A stretch of DNA of 64,000 nt from NCBI GenBank assembly GCA_016868755.1, contig VGFU01000003.1:1-64000 (forward strand), read 5' to 3'. The DNA is from Bacteroidota bacterium. Its GTDB lineage: Bacteria > Bacteroidota > Bacteroidia > Flavobacteriales > Schleiferiaceae. Shown here one piece after another: positions 49,366-56,793 of the stretch (positions are counted from its first letter, which is position 1; the number at the start of each line of letters is the position of its first letter). Under the pieces are notes generated by a model that saw nothing but the letters and a program-made list of their open reading frames with translations, ran no database searches and was not told where the DNA came from. The translations under genes and the position numbers were made by a program.

Positions 49366-49879
49366 GGCAACCGGTTTTTGGTTTCTAGCGGTCGCCGTAC
49401 TGTTGGGCTGTAAAGACCCCAACCCATCGGGCGGCCTGCCCCCAGAGGCCACTGGTCCCTTTTTGCCTCGGCTGACTGCGGGGTGGACCCTTGATTCGGT
49501 GACGTACACCGCCGACTTGCCGATGAATGTTGGAGATACGGTTGTTCCGGTTCGTGTTCACAATAAAGCACGAGACGTAACCGGGCGATTTGATTTTTTT
49601 CGCCGAAACGACTCCGACCTAGTTGACTACCAAATCCAGTTCACGGCTGATTTATTGCCGAGTGTTGCACCGTTTACCTATTCTAAATCACGCGTCGGCA
49701 CCTACTGGTATAAGCCGGTTGAGCGCGAAATCTGGTTTTACGACTATCCTGACACCTTAGTCTTCAAAGTGGATTGGGACGCGGAAACCCTCCAGCTCTG
49801 GCATTCGGAGCTTCAGGTAGTCGAGCCGGGATTGGGAATCACGTTCCCGCTGCGCTTGGACTTTAGGCTCGTTCCGTGA
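49358..49879 (+). CDS. Small lipoprotein of unknown function, between trkA and blh
   Basis: A 173-residue protein with a lipoprotein signal (MAKATGFWFLAVAVLLGC, Cys18) and a beta-strand-rich body; 'PRLTAGWTLDSVTYTADL', 'RFDFFRRNDSDLVDYQIQF' and 'FPLRLDFRLVP' alternate hydrophobic and polar residues as in a small beta barrel. I do not recognise a family. It overlaps trkA by 8 bases and blh by 4, so it is cotranscribed with the retinal-synthesis gene. A link to the rhodopsin is possible but not shown. Confidence 0.8.
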   Translation: MAKATGFWFLAVAVLLGCKDPNPSGGLPPEATGPFLPRLTAGWTLDSVTYTADLPMNVGDTVVPVRVHNKARDVTGRFDFFRRNDSDLVDYQIQFTADLLPSVAPFTYSKSRVGTYWYKPVEREIWFYDYPDTLVFKVDWDAETLQLWHSELQVVEPGLGITFPLRLDFRLVP

Positions 49880-50718
49880 CGGAACTCCTTCTGGTCACCC
49901 TTCTCGGAGCGCTCTTGTTTGCCCTTCCGGCCAGTGCGCATCCGCTCATTTTAGCCCTCGGAATCGCCACGGGAATGCCCCATGGGGCCACGGACATCCT
50001 CACGGACCGCGGGGGGCTATCTCGCCCTGCTTTGGGCTACTATGCGGTTAGCATTCTGCTCCTTAGTGCGCTTTGGTTTTGGTCGCCCTCGTGGGCGCTC
50101 GCAAACTTCTTGACTCTGAGCATGCTTCACTTTGGCTCAGAAGACGCCGCCACCGAATCTGGCACCGCGCTGTTTTTGCACGAAACCCTCGTGCGCGGAA
50201 TGCTCGTCGTCTTGGCACCCAGCATTTTTCACGAAGCCGAGGTGCTGCGGCTATTTGGCCTTCTCGCCGAAACCTCGTGGGCAGGTCCCGAATGGACGCA
50301 AGGCCTTTCGTTCGCACGGAGCCTTTGGATTTTCTTGGCGTTCACGCTTTTTGGCCACTATGCGGTGCGGTCTACCCAGTGGCGGCACGTCGTTTTTGTG
50401 TTTGCGCAGATTTTGGTGCTTGTGGCTGTGTTTCGTTTGCTCCAGCCCTTGACGGCCTTCGTGGCCTACTTTGTTGGCGGACACTCGCTGCACAGCGCCC
50501 GCAAAATTTGGCCGGTACTCAAGGAGCACCGCACCATGGTCTTGGGCGCTACCGCATTCACGTTTATCGTCGCGGCCGGGGTCTTTTGGGCTTCAGGCGA
50601 AAGCGCACTCGACGACCGCCTTATTCGTACGGCGTTTATCTCGCTGTCGCTTTTTGCGGTTCCGCACGGAATCTGGCGGACCGCAGAGGTGCTGCGCGAT
50701 CGCTGGGTGCGGGCCTAA
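49876..50718 (+). CDS. blh: Brp/Blh family beta-carotene 15,15'-dioxygenase
   Basis: A 280-residue integral membrane enzyme cleaving beta-carotene to two retinal molecules, the chromophore of the proteorhodopsin next door. Conserved iron-ligand histidines are visible in MPHGATDI (His36), SMLHFGSED (His85), GGHSLHSARKI (about 199-209) and VPHGIWRT (about 262-269). About eight hydrophobic helices. The start is GTG (49876) overlapping the previous stop. It is convergent with the rhodopsin gene; a hairpin separates them. Carotenoid synthesis genes are not in the window. Confidence 0.92.
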   Translation: MTELLLVTLLGALLFALPASAHPLILALGIATGMPHGATDILTDRGGLSRPALGYYAVSILLLSALWFWSPSWALANFLTLSMLHFGSEDAATESGTALFLHETLVRGMLVVLAPSIFHEAEVLRLFGLLAETSWAGPEWTQGLSFARSLWIFLAFTLFGHYAVRSTQWRHVVFVFAQILVLVAVFRLLQPLTAFVAYFVGGHSLHSARKIWPVLKEHRTMVLGATAFTFIVAAGVFWASGESALDDRLIRTAFISLSLFAVPHGIWRTAEVLRDRWVRA

Positions 50719-50725
50719 ATGCAAA

Positions 50726-50747
50726 GAGCCGCCCCGAGGGGCGGCTC
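50726..50747. terminator. Hairpin between convergent blh and rhodopsin genes
   Basis: GAGCCGCCCC pairs with GGGGCGGCTC. On the minus strand it is followed by TTTGCATTT, a weak T-rich tail; on the plus strand there is none. It probably stops both transcripts. Confidence 0.7.
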
Positions 50748-50771
50748 CGTGCACAAAATCCGAGGTTAGAC

Positions 50772-51485
50772 TTAGTCCTTTTGAGCTAAGGTGTAGATTA
50801 CCAAACCGAAGCCAATCTTGTTGATGGCATCGCCGATGTTGTACACCAAGTCCATTGACAGGCCTTCGAGCACTTTCACGCCGAAGAGTCCGCCCTCGGT
50901 GCCGGCAATGTACCCAATTGGGTAGATAGCCCAGCCTACGAGTACGAACCAGCCCAGTGCCTTAACGGCAGTCTGAACTTTGCCACCTGCATTGGCGGCC
51001 AAGGTTGCAACCTCGCCTTTCCAAACAAGCCATACAATGTAGAAGTATGCAAGACCTGACATAGCACCCCATACCCAAGATTGGGTTTGGTCCGCGTAGA
51101 AGGCCTCACCGATGTAGCCGAGCAGCAGCATCGCAACTGAGGCCCAAATCAGGCGCCAAAGTAAGCCGCTGGTGCCGCCTGCTTTTTTGGTGATTAAGTA
51201 AAACTCCACACACATCAAGGGAACCGTGAGGGTCCAGTCAATGTAGCGAAGGGCGATCGGGTTGGTTCCGGTCGCTTGGTAAAAGTCGCGCATGTAGTAG
51301 TAGTGCACGGCTGCGATACCGGTAATCAAACCAGATACCAACAGCGAGAGCTTCCACTCGTCAGCGACACGGCTGCGCTCCATAAAAAAGAATACAGAGG
51401 CAGCGAACATGGCCATGTAGCCCGTGAAAAACGTAAAGCTTACGGGATCGGCCGGATCAATGGTGAGTACTTCGAGAAATTGCAT
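50772..51485 (-). CDS. Proteorhodopsin, DTE-type light-driven proton pump
   Basis: A 237-residue seven-helix retinal protein. Helix C reads RYIDWTLTVPLMCVEFYL: Asp83 (primary acceptor), Thr87 and Glu94 (donor) give the D-T-E set of outward H+ pumps, not the N-D-Q set of sodium pumps. Met91 is at the spectral-tuning position (GPR 105), which predicts green absorption. His61 corresponds to the His that pairs with the acceptor in proteorhodopsins. The retinal Schiff-base lysine is Lys223 in INKIGFG, with Asp219 as counter-ion partner. It is transcribed alone from an A/T-rich upstream region. Blh, the retinal synthase, is convergent and 53 bases away. Confidence 0.95.
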   Translation of the reverse strand: MQFLEVLTIDPADPVSFTFFTGYMAMFAASVFFFMERSRVADEWKLSLLVSGLITGIAAVHYYYMRDFYQATGTNPIALRYIDWTLTVPLMCVEFYLITKKAGGTSGLLWRLIWASVAMLLLGYIGEAFYADQTQSWVWGAMSGLAYFYIVWLVWKGEVATLAANAGGKVQTAVKALGWFVLVGWAIYPIGYIAGTEGGLFGVKVLEGLSMDLVYNIGDAINKIGFGLVIYTLAQKD

Positions 51486-51769: not shown

Positions 51770-52741
51770 ATGGCACGCATCCTCACAGGAATTCAAAGCA
51801 GCGGACGCCAGCACCTTGGGAATGTGCTGGGCGCGATTCTTCCGGCCATTGAATTGGCCAAGGACCCACGGAACGAGTCCTATTTATTTATCGCAGATCT
51901 GCACTCGCTGACTACGGTTAAAGATCCTGAGGCGCGTAAGGCCAATTTGCTTTCGACCGCAGCGGCTTGGCTGGCGTGCGGATTGGATCCGCAGCGCACG
52001 GTGTTTTATGCCCAAAGTGACCTGCCCGAATGTACCGAGCTCACATGGTACCTCAACTGCTTCACGCCCTACCCGATGCTGGCGAACGCGCATAGCTTTA
52101 AAGACAAGTCAGACCGTCTCAGCGACGTCAATGCCGGACTCTTTGATTATCCGGTCCTGATGGCCTCTGACATCTTACTGTACGACGCGCACGTTGTCCC
52201 GGTCGGTAAAGACCAGCGCCAGCACCTTGAGATTGCGCGCGACATCGCGGAGACGTTCCACTGGACCACGGGTCGGGAGGTATTTGTGCTTCCCGAGGCG
52301 CGCATTCAGGAGTCAGTAATGACGATTCCCGGCACGGACGGCCAAAAAATGTCCAAGTCCTACGGTAACGTAATCGACATCTTTTTGTCTGAAAAGGAGC
52401 TGAAAAAGCAAATCATGGGCATTGTCACCGACTCCACGCCGCTCGATGACCCCAAGGACCCCTCGAAGTGCAACGTCGTGACGCTCTACCGCCTCATTGC
52501 TAACCCTTCGCGCGTTGCTGAGATGGAAGCGGCCTACCGCGCCGGTGGATACGGTTACGGACATGCCAAGACGGCTCTATTTGAGGCCATTCTGGAGCGT
52601 TTTGCCGGACCCCGCGCCGAGTTTGACCGCCTTATGGCCGATCCCGAGGCCGTGCATGCAGTCCTGCGGGCCGGGGCCGACACAGCCCGTCCGGTTGCCC
52701 AGGCCACCCTGAAGCGCGTGCGCGAGGCGTTGGGCTTTTAA
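51770..52741 (+). CDS. trpS: Tryptophan-tRNA ligase
   Basis: A 323-residue class I synthetase. HIGH-like motif in GIQSSGRQHLGN (about 7-18), 'ASDILLYDAHVVPVGKDQRQHLE' (about 131-153) in the active site, and KMSKS in DGQKMSKSYGN (about 192-202). Normal length for the bacterial enzyme. TAACTTCG ends 4 bases before the ATG, another probable leaderless start. Downstream 52742-53003 (262 bases) is A/T-rich and holds no terminator or gene I can recognise. Confidence 0.95.
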   Translation: MARILTGIQSSGRQHLGNVLGAILPAIELAKDPRNESYLFIADLHSLTTVKDPEARKANLLSTAAAWLACGLDPQRTVFYAQSDLPECTELTWYLNCFTPYPMLANAHSFKDKSDRLSDVNAGLFDYPVLMASDILLYDAHVVPVGKDQRQHLEIARDIAETFHWTTGREVFVLPEARIQESVMTIPGTDGQKMSKSYGNVIDIFLSEKELKKQIMGIVTDSTPLDDPKDPSKCNVVTLYRLIANPSRVAEMEAAYRAGGYGYGHAKTALFEAILERFAGPRAEFDRLMADPEAVHAVLRAGADTARPVAQATLKRVREALGF

Positions 52742-53003
52742 GAACAGAACTGATACTATTCCGGGCCCTAAAGTCGCCCAACATGGTTTTTTATGGACCT
52801 GGGCTTGACCAGCCTTAGTCCGTTATTTAGTTGATATATAATGATTTATGAATTCGTAACACGGCGCGATCTCGTATAAATATTGATTACCAGTCAAAAA
52901 AAATACAAATTGAGTCAATTTATAGATGTTTCGAGTGATTAAATGTTTAATTTACAGTACAAAGTTATAATTTCAAGAAACCTAAACATTAACTACTCAA
53001 AAC
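52742..53003. other. A/T-rich gap between trpS and the large membrane protein
   Basis: Only short A/T-rich runs are seen here; no hairpin terminator, tRNA or small ORF is convincing. The region presumably holds the promoter of the 53004 gene. Confidence 0.5.
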
Positions 53004-55067
53004 ATGCAAGAACTGATTGTCATATTTATAGGGCTTGTCCCCGCTTTATACCTCGTTGGTCGGTTGTATTCGGACCTTCGAGGAAAAGCGTGTAATGCTA
53101 CACTAAATCTGGATGAGGTCCGAGATAATATTCGGAAGTCGAATGGATTTTGGGAGTGGTTTGTACCCATTGCCGTAGCGTTTGCATTTGCATACAACAT
53201 TGTAGCAACTGCTGCATGGATGGTTGCAGAATTGGTTCAACTTGGACTATCTGCAGCGAAGTGGGGTTTCAAAAATATCTTCGTGACGGGCCCGTGGTTC
53301 ATCCTAAAGATGGTATGGCACTACCTGGTCGTTTGGCCTTGGAAGTTGCTTCGAATGGCGTTTGGAGAAATCATGCCTTCGCTCACGCGTTCGCAATTCA
53401 TTATCGCATTTACCGGCATTTCCCTATGCTTGGCGATTTATTTTATCGGAGTTTACGACGCTGAGAGTTCAGACTGGTTAACGTATGCCATGTCGGTTCT
53501 GTCGGTGTTCCCATTGGGTTGGGCCGTTGGCAAAATTGGATTGGCTGCGAATGGTAAAAGCTACACAAGTAGTGAGCGCAATACTTACTTCAAGCATCTG
53601 GGATTCTTGATCGCCCTATTTGCGGTTGTAACGCTTGCCGAGGCATTTGTTATTAATCTCGGAACCCACACCTCAATGAGCTCGGCGCTTTCGCATTTGT
53701 TCTTATTCGGAACATTTTGGGGTTCCGCGCTGCTGCTGTTCAATGGGTTAATCCTTCTGTTTAGCATTAGTGCACTTCCGTTCATCAGTGCGGACTTTTC
53801 AGGATCGTACAAGGATCTGTTGTTCGCCGTCTGGGCAACGATTCGAACAAAAGGCCTTCGATTTGCCGTTGCGGTTCCTGCTATGTTGCTACCGATGACG
53901 ATTCTCGGAATTGTTCCTAAACTACTCACGGAGGGCATTAACCATATTTCGAACACCATTACCGAAGAGGTTTACGCGAACCGGTTGGTTTCGTTGAAAT
54001 TTGATGAGCCCGGCACGATGAATGTGTATGACTTGTCGATTCCTGAGGATTCAGTAGCGATGTACTTTGACGAGTGGGTGGGGTTCTACACCGCTACGGT
54101 AAACAATCGGGCCATTGAGCTTGACCGCGATGGAGTTACGGGAATCTTGTCTAGCAATTCTGACGAGAAGGCAGCAACTCCGTACTACCTTGTATTTGGA
54201 ATGCTGGACTCGTTGAATCGCACGCAATACAATGCTATTGCGTTGGATGAATTCAAAGTAGGCACTAGCGATTTGTCGGAGGCCTCTGAACAGCTGGTAG
54301 AAGAAACACAGAGCCGTGTTAATACTGCAGAAAAGGGATTAACCTATGCTTCGGCCATTCTGAAAGATGCCGAAGCAGATCGCAATAAAATTTGCAATCT
54401 GACTGAAGAAGCAGCCAAAGAAAAAGAAGATCCGAAGGCTGAAAAAGACGCTAAAAAAGAGGACACTCCCAAGGCTGCTGAAGGTACGGCATGCGACCGA
54501 GCCAATGAGCGCGTCAATGCGGCACAAGACAATTTGAACAACGCCAAAACCGTGAAGGCACGTGCAGACTTTATTGCTGCCCAAGTAGAGGGACTTAATG
54601 CACACATAGAGAGCCTGTCGAGTTCAACGGGATGGTCTACAAAATTAGCTTGGGTCCTAGGAGCCATCTTCTTAGCACTGCTGGCCGCCCTACAATTTGG
54701 ATTGCCATTCGTGCTCTTTGCGCGCGTAAATGCACGCATCTATGCTGAAGACGATGACCAATCCATTGTTGTACTGGACTCAATTCGCGCCATGCAGCGT
54801 GAAGACAAGAACCAACCTTTGTTGGGCTTGGGCGTCACCCTGCTTATTTACCTCATGTATACAGGTACACCGTTGATGAATTTTGAGTTTCCTGACTTGC
54901 CATCTCCGGTGAGGTCGAGTATTGATTACGGCGTTGACGTTTATGAAGACGTTCTTGGCTCTTACCTTAATGAAGGCACCACTTCAGAAGATGAAGTGGT
55001 CGTTGAAGAGGTTAGTGATGAAGACGAATACGGTGAATATCTTGATACTGAAGAAGCCTGGGAATAG
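53004..55067 (+). CDS. Large uncharacterised membrane protein with coiled coil and acidic tail
   Basis: A 687-residue protein I do not recognise. One hydrophobic segment starts the protein (about 3-21), a cluster of about six to eight helices follows (about 50-315), then a soluble part (about 320-540). The soluble part contains a charged coiled coil (about 425-540) interrupted by a K/E/D/A-rich low-complexity stretch with paired cysteines at either side (NKICNLTEE ... GTACDRAN). Two more helices (about 555-575 and 605-625) and an acidic tail (EDEVVVEEVSDEDEYGEYLDTEE) finish it. Codon and base composition are A/T-richer than most neighbours. It is monocistronic: an upstream gap and a strong terminator at 55107 isolate it. 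Nothing indicates an enzyme activity. Confidence 0.78.
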   Translation: MQELIVIFIGLVPALYLVGRLYSDLRGKACNATLNLDEVRDNIRKSNGFWEWFVPIAVAFAFAYNIVATAAWMVAELVQLGLSAAKWGFKNIFVTGPWFILKMVWHYLVVWPWKLLRMAFGEIMPSLTRSQFIIAFTGISLCLAIYFIGVYDAESSDWLTYAMSVLSVFPLGWAVGKIGLAANGKSYTSSERNTYFKHLGFLIALFAVVTLAEAFVINLGTHTSMSSALSHLFLFGTFWGSALLLFNGLILLFSISALPFISADFSGSYKDLLFAVWATIRTKGLRFAVAVPAMLLPMTILGIVPKLLTEGINHISNTITEEVYANRLVSLKFDEPGTMNVYDLSIPEDSVAMYFDEWVGFYTATVNNRAIELDRDGVTGILSSNSDEKAATPYYLVFGMLDSLNRTQYNAIALDEFKVGTSDLSEASEQLVEETQSRVNTAEKGLTYASAILKDAEADRNKICNLTEEAAKEKEDPKAEKDAKKEDTPKAAEGTACDRANERVNAAQDNLNNAKTVKARADFIAAQVEGLNAHIESLSSSTGWSTKLAWVLGAIFLALLAALQFGLPFVLFARVNARIYAEDDDQSIVVLDSIRAMQREDKNQPLLGLGVTLLIYLMYTGTPLMNFEFPDLPSPVRSSIDYGVDVYEDVLGSYLNEGTTSEDEVVVEEVSDEDEYGEYLDTEEAWE

Positions 55068-55106: not shown

Positions 55107-55136
55107 TGCCCTGCAGAATTTCTGCAGGGCATTTTT
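55107..55136 (+). terminator. Rho-independent terminator after the large membrane protein
   Basis: TGCCCTGCAG pairs with CTGCAGGGCA around an AATTT loop (further A-T pairs possible), followed by TTTTT. Confidence 0.9.
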
Positions 55137-55187
55137 AATTCGCTTCGGCTTGGCGCGTAAAACGTTGGGTGCGACCCAAGCGATGAT

Positions 55188-56777
55188 TTAGCGCTGAGCA
55201 TCCTTAATCTGCTGCTCGCGCGGAGCGTGGTCCACGAAGCGGTCGGCATAGCCATGGCGATGCAAGGCGATATGGCCGTAGCCATTCTCGAGAAGCCATG
55301 TGCCTAGGGCTTGGCCCACGCCGTTTATGGCTTGGGCGTCTTCCCAGACGTGCCAGGTGTGGTGGTTGCGGGCGAAGTAGTGAAGCGAGTTGGGGTCAAT
55401 CGGCTTGGCACGGCGCAGATCGATTACGCTGTGGCCGGGCGCGGCCGCTTCGAGGGCTTTACTGAGGGCGGAACCTAGCGCAAAGTGGGCCACGCCGGTG
55501 CCGGACTGCATCCAATCCATTCCGCCGCGGCGCTGCATGGGGTTCGGGTAGTGCGGAAACTTGCCCTTCGGGTAGCGGATGATGGAAGGTCCGCCGTAGG
55601 CAAGGGCCTCCTCGAGGGCCTCGCGAAGGGCGACTCCGTCGCGCGGAGCCCAAATGGCCGTGTGCGGCACCGCCCGGAACATCGCCAGGTCAAATACGCC
55701 GTGGTGGGTGGCGCCGTCTTCGCCGACCATTCCGGCGCGGTCGAGGCACAAAATCACAGGTAGTTGCTGTAGGGCCACGTCGTGGATCCACTGGTCGAGG
55801 GCGCGCTGCGAGAAGGTGGAGTAGAGGTTGACTACGGGGCGGAGGCCGGCGGCGGCCATGGCCGCCGCGGCCGTCAGGCAGTGGGGCTCGGCGATTCCTA
55901 CGTCGTGCACGCGGTCGGGGAACTGGGCGCGCACCAAGTCAAGGCTGCATCCCGGAGCCATTGCCGCCGTGAGCGCATGGATGCGGGGGTTTGTGGCGGC
56001 GAGCGAAGCGAGGGCCGCCGCAAAATGCGACTGGAAGTGTTCAGGTCCAGGGGCAGATTCGTCGAGTCCCAACTCGGTGATATTTGGGCGGCGGGTGCGC
56101 ACGTGCAGCACGCGCGGGCCGCGGAGCGCCAGCGCGCGCTCCAGGGCGCCCACCACGGCGGGCAGGTCGTTCCCGTCCACCTCGCCACCGGCCCAGGCCC
56201 AGCCGAGGGATTCAACTAGGCCGCGGTAGGCATCGGGCCCGCCGCGGTGCAGGGCGCCGACGTTTTCTTCGATGGCCATTCCGTTGTCGTTGATGACCAG
56301 CAAAACGTCGGCGCCCCACCCGCCTCCGTCGTTGAGGGCTTCAAACACCATTCCGCCGGTCATAGCCCCGTCGCCGACCACCGCTACGCGGTGGCGTTGG
56401 GTTCCAAGGGCGAGGTCCGCGCGGGCAAAACCCACGGCCGCCGACAGGGCCGTGCTGGAGTGGCCCACGCCCCACGCGTCGAAGGGCGATTCGCTGCGGC
56501 GGGGGAAGCCGCTGGGTCCGCCTGGGGTACGGTTCGCTGCAAAAACGGCCGCTCGGTCCGTCAGCACTTTGTGGATGTAGGCTTGGTGACCCACATCCCA
56601 CAGGAGCAGGTCGTTCGGCGTATCGAGCACCCCGTGCAGCGCCACCGTCAGTTCGGCCGCGCCAACGCTCGAAGCAATGTGGCCGGCTTTGTCGCGGGTG
56701 CTCGCAAGCACGTGCCGCGAGGCGGCTTCGGCCACCTCAGCCCATCGGGCCACAGGCCACTGGCGCCATTCGTTCAT
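55188..56777 (-). CDS. dxs: 1-deoxy-D-xylulose-5-phosphate synthase, short form
   Basis: A transketolase-like enzyme of about 529 residues condensing pyruvate and glyceraldehyde-3-P to DXP for isoprenoids, thiamine and PLP. Motifs: 'LLLWDVGHQAYIHKVLT' (catalytic-site His, about 64), GDGAMTGG (about 135-142) to INDNG for ThDP, 'YSTFSQRALDQW', and 'DRAGMVGEDGATHHGVFDL' (about 346-364). It is roughly 90 residues shorter than usual, mainly by loss of the linker between the two catalytic domains. The usual A-E-Q-H motif reads AEPHCLT. Starts are ATG 56777 or GTG 56789; a TACTTTTG box lies at 56794-56801. It supplies precursors for carotenoid and retinal in this rhodopsin-bearing organism. Confidence 0.85.
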   Translation of the reverse strand: MNEWRQWPVARWAEVAEAASRHVLASTRDKAGHIASSVGAAELTVALHGVLDTPNDLLLWDVGHQAYIHKVLTDRAAVFAANRTPGGPSGFPRRSESPFDAWGVGHSSTALSAAVGFARADLALGTQRHRVAVVGDGAMTGGMVFEALNDGGGWGADVLLVINDNGMAIEENVGALHRGGPDAYRGLVESLGWAWAGGEVDGNDLPAVVGALERALALRGPRVLHVRTRRPNITELGLDESAPGPEHFQSHFAAALASLAATNPRIHALTAAMAPGCSLDLVRAQFPDRVHDVGIAEPHCLTAAAAMAAAGLRPVVNLYSTFSQRALDQWIHDVALQQLPVILCLDRAGMVGEDGATHHGVFDLAMFRAVPHTAIWAPRDGVALREALEEALAYGGPSIIRYPKGKFPHYPNPMQRRGGMDWMQSGTGVAHFALGSALSKALEAAAPGHSVIDLRRAKPIDPNSLHYFARNHHTWHVWEDAQAINGVGQALGTWLLENGYGHIALHRHGYADRFVDHAPREQQIKDAQR

Positions 56778-56793
56778 CAAGGGGATCACCCTA

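Follow-up and report, generated by a model that had tools for sequence, protein, structure and literature searches.

A rare family of membrane proteins with an exchangeable middle in Bacteroidia, and its member at the trpS/dxs junction of a Flavobacteriales genome

The Locus and Its Surroundings

The window, that is, the whole stretch of 64,000 nucleotides analyzed here (positions 1 to 64,000 of contig VGFU01000003.1, assembly GCA_016868755.1), carries between trpS and dxs a large gene for a membrane protein of 687 residues (Table 1). The gene begins 262 bp after the end of trpS on the same strand and is convergent with dxs, and it is likely monocistronic. Both its GC content (0.472; mean 0.607, z -3.0) and its GC3 (0.491, z -3.1) are the minimum among 55 ORFs of the window, a set chosen mechanically and including shadow ORFs, in agreement with an initial interpretation of the letters alone (hereafter the sequence-only reading), which had called the gene A/T-richer than its neighbors. 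The A/T-rich upstream intergenic region contains no exact match to the flavobacterial promoter consensus. Downstream, a hairpin at 55108-55130 precedes ATTTTTAATT. A folding energy of -24.7 kcal/mol (z -6.15) was calculated for the 54-nt stretch, and none of 200 shuffles folded equally well, which bears out the proposal that the gene is bounded by a terminator of its own. A scan for consensus terminators did not list this hairpin. An assembly chimera is unlikely, because the two flanks neighbor each other in congeners and the gene lies inside a 107-kb contig.

Two further observations concern the neighborhood. The Dxs encoded at 55188-56789 has a length of only 533 aa and, at 433.4 bits, falls below the TIGR00204 cut-off of 465.95, and the remaining Dxs matches in the same genome are partial. 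In addition, a beta-carotene dioxygenase gene (Blh/BCD) at 49876-51485 adjoins a rhodopsin gene, the helix-C stretch of which, YIDWTLTVPLMCVEFY, fits a proton pump of the DTE type with a Met tuning residue.

Table 1. Features at the trpS/dxs junction of the window, with the parts of the encoded membrane protein
Feature	Position	Strand	Basis or remark
trpS, left flank, neighbor at the insertion site	51770..52741	+	Pfam/NCBIfam, congener comparison
A/T-rich intergenic region upstream of the gene, GC 0.332	52742..53003	+	sequence composition
Family-member gene, stop codon included	53004..55067	+	ORF call and homology; 687 aa, ATG start
N-terminal membrane bundle, aa 4-305, with 6 helices clear and 8 probable	53013..53918	+	hydropathy, N-core profile E 2.2e-30
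WHYLVVWPW, aa 105-113	53316..53342	+	Y107 in 15/15 aligned rows, H106 in 14/15
First arm of predicted helical hairpin, aa 421-463	54264..54392	+	periodicity, AlphaFold (moderate local confidence)
Cys464-Cys497 with K/E/A-rich loop, presumed hairpin tip	54393..54494	+	hydropathy/composition; FN3 or PKD modules here in relatives
Second arm of predicted hairpin, aa 498-540	54495..54623	+	periodicity, AlphaFold
C-terminal membrane helix 1, aa 554-572	54663..54719	+	hydropathy, C-core profile E 2.2e-11
NQPLLGL, aa 603-609, start of last helix	54810..54830	+	P605 in 15/15 rows, Q604 in 12/15
C-terminal membrane helix 2, aa 606-624	54819..54875	+	hydropathy
Acidic tail, aa 625-687 (63 residues)	54876..55064	+	21 D/E, 1 K/R; nearest relatives acidic too
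Intrinsic terminator, hairpin and T-rich run	55108..55140	+	folding
dxs, right flank, neighbor at the insertion site	55188..56789	-	Pfam/NCBIfam, congener comparison

A Family Scattered over Several Orders

The protein had been described as an orphan, which proved wrong, since searches across the order and the class revealed a patchy family within the same class. A single-sequence protein search of 60 relatives returned only the own genome, single-sequence searches of genome and viral contigs missed the family, the window protein alone had no match among 50,697 phage and 72,556 plasmid records, and four scans of viral contigs gave no relative. Among 395 genomes of the order, weak matches to long ORFs were obtained (best E 1.1e-10); five order-level ORFs that were read out encode 819-859 aa with the same N- and C-terminal membrane regions, and profile searches brought further members. 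Profiles of the two membrane cores, made from 12 members outside the window clade, match the window protein with E 2.2e-30 (99.5 bits; best of 200 shuffles, 5.8) for the N-terminal core and E 2.2e-11 (37.6 bits; best of 200 shuffles, 6.5) for the C-terminal core, where the shuffles kept composition within blocks of 20 residues and a mild circularity arises from cutting the profiles out of an alignment made with the window protein present. Five unrelated proteins of the window (RND, rhodopsin, Blh, and two transporter-like proteins) were outside the best eight matches of either profile.

In the alignment, 14 columns are conserved in at least 12 of the 15 rows; N65, W87 and Y107 are invariant, H106 is found in 14 of 15 rows, and no residue among these columns is acidic or, except for H106, charged. 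The window protein possesses the invariant N, W and Y with the HY motif in the N-terminal core, as well as QP..G at the start of the last helix in the C-terminal core, and we consider its membership of this newly defined family, as judged by sequence comparison, nearly certain. The membrane core had no significant match among Pfam, NCBIfam and PDB families, and PHROGs gave nothing significant for it; the earlier statement that no family is recognized therefore holds for the named libraries searched (Pfam, NCBIfam, PHROGs, and PDB sequences). Likewise, the titles and opening parts of abstracts retrieved by literature searches contained no description of such a family. Several matches were treated as chance, namely LmuB (PADLOC, 4.8e-4, residues 416-540, in the coiled part), Cas12a (PADLOC, 0.0043, residues 309-443), ATG27 (Pfam, E 0.0094), and an IS110 transposase model matched by one member (NCBIfam, 3.6e-4).

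From these searches, the family appears to be rare and scattered over several orders of the class. A phylogenetic profile, which the sequence-only reading had proposed as a check, was run order-wide and, by membrane-core matches, found the family in 7 of 395 genomes, own included; the corresponding figures are 8 of 395 in the class-level set (own included), 1 of 395 in a phylum-wide draw (the own genome), 4 of 88 in the taxonomic family of the window (the own genome plus three from a single other genus), 2 of 16 in the family of G425 (G425 and G743 themselves), and 6 of 13 in the genus of G448 (three of them new), all of them rough frequencies, as the genome sets overlap and the profiles differ between searches. 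Before members were counted in the order and the class, matches confined to the variable middle (profile columns about 400-700, mostly FN3-like) were removed. Besides the own genome, 18 genomes carry the family: G343, G781, G783, G187, G242, G092, G157, G223, G484, G425, G743, G768, G448, G635, G773, G1089, G1095, and G1096; the members read out exclude the last three, and that of G783 is a fragment. Weak partial core matches were also seen in G397 (columns 44-85) and in G657 and G522 (columns 239-366). A weak early candidate, G237, was rejected, as its ORF (L077) is unlike the family and gave no match to the core profile.

Nearest Relatives

The closest relatives of the window protein are found in G425 (MAG LaPlata_bin-1703, CAIKAF010000025.1; E 1.5e-64) and G743 (casp15-mb.160, JAQCBQ010000073.1; E 1.4e-68), with 29% identity in full-length alignment, and this identity with G425 rules out an annotation artefact or a chance ORF. 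The window protein and these relatives have in common WHYLVVWPW, FARVN, NQPLLGL, both loop cysteines (in the full-length alignment) and an acidic tail, whereas the relatives differ in their length of 735 aa, their longer N-terminus, their loop sequence and their genomic neighbors. Because an alignment of the soluble part only leaves the first cysteine unaligned, homology of the loop cysteines is likely but not certain from the alignments. In the core tree, the window protein groups (support 100/99) with G425/G743, which are assigned to a different order of the class. The g6 members, which belong to the taxonomic family of the window, group with G484 of another order (100/100). Deeper forks are weakly supported. 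The MAG of the nearest relative belongs to another order in one taxonomy and is an "uncultured Flavobacteriales bacterium" at NCBI, so that the distance between the hosts is taxonomy-dependent.

Architecture of the Window Protein

The layout given by the sequence-only reading, consisting of an N-terminal bundle, a soluble helical part, a charged insert flanked by cysteines, two more helices and an acidic end, was confirmed on the 687-aa ORF. Hydropathy (Kyte-Doolittle, averaged over 19 residues) shows six N-terminal and two C-terminal hydrophobic segments in this protein and 8+2 in its nearest relative in G425; since the third and fifth segments of the latter align with residues of about 92-110 and 162-180, we estimate 8+2 membrane helices for the window protein as well. 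The soluble stretch between the membrane segments comprises residues 306-553. Cysteines occur at positions 30, 142, 464 and 497, and the 32 residues between the last two include 7 K, 7 E and 7 A.

The alignments establish that a variable insert separates the conserved cores, and a helical hairpin between these cores is predicted with moderate local confidence. Both flanking arms of the window protein exceeded shuffles in helical periodicity (p = 0.023 and 0.025), and neither arm of G425 did (p = 0.12 and 0.81). In an AlphaFold model of the soluble part (mean pLDDT 49.0), the most confidently predicted elements are two long helices at 421-473 and 496-540, connected by a loop, with block means of 56-77 for residues 426-475 and 51-75 for residues 496-545; the full model, made with three sequences, has a mean pLDDT of 36.7, and both models are of low quality as a whole. 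At 45-50 residues, each arm would measure about 7 nm. A structure search, which had also been proposed as a check, was performed with Foldseek on the model of the soluble part and gave no match at E <= 0.001, the best 50 matches being mostly generic helical proteins. Structural modeling lends the stalk proposed below little support.

Exchange of the Middle and a Partner Gene

Among 14 members scanned with Pfam (E up to 0.1), fn3 was found in five and PKD_6 in four; three PKD_6 matches examined singly exceed the curated cut-off, and the fn3 match of G223, examined singly, lies below it (E 0.0061). The insert varies by clade, being a cysteine-flanked charged loop in the window protein and its nearest relatives, a short middle with neither an fn3 nor a PKD module in G635 and G773, and of PKD type (by eye) in G781. 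The exchange of modules between conserved cores is thus evident at the level of sequence.

In all five f8/f11 members read, a partner gene lies directly downstream on the same strand, with spacing from an 8 bp overlap to a 48 bp gap. The partner proteins have an N-terminal hydrophobic stretch (by eye) followed by a long low-complexity region, and they resemble one another in their N-terminal parts (8.7e-20 for the best pair, 7.4e-5 for G092 to G187). Four of them have a common C-terminal stretch by eye, with blastp between the two subgroups giving only E 0.02-0.23, and that of G092 ends in a TonB_C domain (E 3.3e-20); the TonB_C-bearing partner, at L080 7369-8400, also has a long lysine run near its C-terminus. 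No such partner was present among the neighboring ORFs read in the window, G425 and G484. In f8/f11, no more than about 20 residues follow the last membrane helix of the large protein, whereas the acidic tails extend over 63 residues in the window protein and 77 in G425; tail and partner may do related work. Tails of other members were also inspected. Those of G448 and G768 looked SPOR-like by eye and failed tests with a SPOR profile and solved structures. In G773 (L156 4579-4806), the acidic tail is followed by a Cys-rich stretch resembling an LDL-receptor class A repeat by eye, to which Pfam gave no match.

The Junction and the Origin of the Gene

Protein and profile searches found the family in none of 21 congeners; a 61-residue match in G001 (E 0.02, two stops) was dismissed as noise. 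In 16 congeners, all but G004, G007, G008, G015 and G020, trpS and dxs were located on one contig, and 15 of these 16 junctions are empty, with gaps of 14-220 bp; for G015, the matches point to a spacing of about 45 bp where a contig ends. The junction of G005 holds 1,151 bp with an ORF resembling an alpha/beta hydrolase, and in G008 (L085 1-7200) about 7 kb separates the trpS 3' end from dxs and contains ORFs resembling a glycoside hydrolase, a hydrolase similar to that of G005 and a tyrosine recombinase, all labeled by eye. A small, stop-containing trpS fragment (residues 88-128) lies beside dxs in G008. The 7 kb of G008, with its tyrosine recombinase-like ORF and the trpS fragment, suggest repeated insertion at this junction. 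In G001, two trpS copies occur on separate contigs (L088 and L089), one of them cut by the contig end, indicative of mixed strains or duplication.

Horizontal acquisition of the window gene is favored over repeated loss, because the junction is empty in most congeners, no remnant of the gene was detected at the congener loci examined by blastn or tblastn, the tree groups members across orders, and transposase-like ORFs lie near other family genes. Three copies of one transposase-like ORF pair (by eye; the first cut by the locus end) surround the family gene in G768 (L153 1-766, 3236-4563, 11728-13055), and transposase-like ORFs (by eye) lie about 1 kb from the family gene in G484. Composition is weak evidence for transfer because low GC is largely a trait of the family: in 11 of 13 relatives the family gene has a lower GC content than the remainder of its own locus, the difference being at most 1% in some. 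This trait would also suit an ancestral gene that was retained here and lost in congeners with no transfer at all, as would the presence of members in another genus of the same taxonomic family (three besides the own genome, of 88). However, the tree places those three members elsewhere (support 100/100), a PKD-type insert is present in the two of them whose middle was read (G343 and, by eye, G781), and no remnant was found at the congener loci examined, so that we regard simple retention as improbable. With transfer, a small-genome relative of the Flavobacteriales would have gained a single large gene at a junction that holds other cargo in two congeners.

A Proposed Membrane-Anchored Stalk and Its Alternatives

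We propose, with a probability of about 0.42 and hence tentatively, that the protein, acquired horizontally, is anchored in the inner membrane and carries a periplasmic stalk with an exchangeable tip, and that it functions as an anchor or scaffold. About eight N-terminal and two C-terminal membrane helices would hold both ends of an antiparallel helical hairpin, which would project about 7 nm into the periplasm, with a tip loop probably tied by a disulfide between Cys464 and Cys497. The tip and the C-terminal tail may contact partners in the envelope, and the protein may thereby tether or scaffold something between the inner membrane and the wall or outer membrane; in relatives the tip would be swapped for FN3 or PKD modules, and in one clade a separate membrane-anchored partner gene would replace the tail. 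We place the middle in the periplasm on account of its acidic composition, its cysteines, and the FN3/PKD modules and TonB_C of relatives, FN3 and PKD alone being insufficient as proof, and we likewise infer the disulfide, the hairpin geometry and the scaffold function. The sequence-only reading had speculated on either a membrane-anchored scaffold or a mechanosensitive-like protein. The scaffold is favored as an interpretation, because FN3/PKD modules occupy the corresponding position in relatives and the partner found in one clade is anchored in the membrane and in part TonB-like, whereas the mechanosensitive likeness is unsupported, since no mechanosensitive-channel model was among the matches of the window protein (E up to 10) or of 14 members (Pfam, E up to 0.1; also none in NCBIfam).

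Alternatively, the protein could be a transporter or channel whose eight-helix bundle carries a solute or ions across the membrane, with the periplasmic hairpin serving as a gate or docking to a partner in the outer membrane, in the manner of adaptor hairpins. The polytopic core, in which N65, W87 and Y107 never vary and H106 is found in 14 of 15 rows, and the TonB_C partner of one member would accord with this, and the best PDB profile match is an RND transporter, at only E 0.13. Yet a clear match to a transporter or channel family, which the sequence-only reading had named as evidence against itself, was looked for in Pfam, NCBIfam and PDB sequences and was absent; no such family is significant in Pfam or NCBIfam for the 14 members, the sole transporter-type NCBIfam name being a sodium-translocating pyrophosphatase at E 0.037 in one member. 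H106 is moreover the only charged residue among the 14 conserved columns, and the lack of an acidic residue there argues weakly against an ion pump or motor. We therefore regard transport as unlikely.

A rare, patchy family with exchangeable, binding-type modules, at a junction that in G005 and G008 holds other cargo (labels by eye), would also suit a membrane sensor or an anti-phage or surface-exclusion protein carried as cargo at the variable junction, the tip of which binds an incoming molecule while the loop between the last two helices signals inside. We hold this to be rather unlikely, as Pfam and NCBIfam gave no signaling or effector domain, PADLOC matches are only partial, and neither phage and plasmid records (for the window protein) nor the four viral-contig scans (for relatives) gave a match. 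A more ambitious proposal would make the protein the base of a new envelope-spanning apparatus of Bacteroidia, with a polytopic base, a hairpin stalk, an interchangeable tip and a TonB-like, periplasm-crossing partner, which would have spread between orders as a compact cassette and in which the partner would be a separate gene in one branch and reduced to the acidic tail in the window branch; we consider this a long shot.

The former orphan can now be assigned to a family that is delimited by its motifs and clades, has an architecture open to testing, and is unnamed in the libraries searched. If this architecture holds, the family offers a natural set of stalk proteins whose tips (charged loop, FN3, PKD) have been swapped by evolution, and it would help in identifying the envelope components that inner-membrane stalks of Bacteroidota contact.

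Comparison with Known Systems

Mechanosensitive channels of the MscK type have large periplasmic helical domains. The window protein is like them in being polytopic with a large soluble helical region and differs in matching no mechanosensitive-channel model. DUF4407 (Pfam PF14362), in which membrane helices flank a coiled coil, matches the coiled part of the window protein at only E 0.28 (10.8 bits against a cut-off of 31.3), with the membrane cores outside the match. As for TonB/ExbB-ExbD, Pfam found no TonB_C in the window protein, its flanks are trpS and dxs with no TonB-like neighbor, and members gave no ExbB/MotA/TolQ-type model; the likeness, a resemblance only, lies in the f8/f11 partner, which has a hydrophobic N-terminus and a low-complexity region and in one case TonB_C. 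The conserved core constitutes an undescribed family of a broad known kind, that of inner-membrane anchors with stalks.
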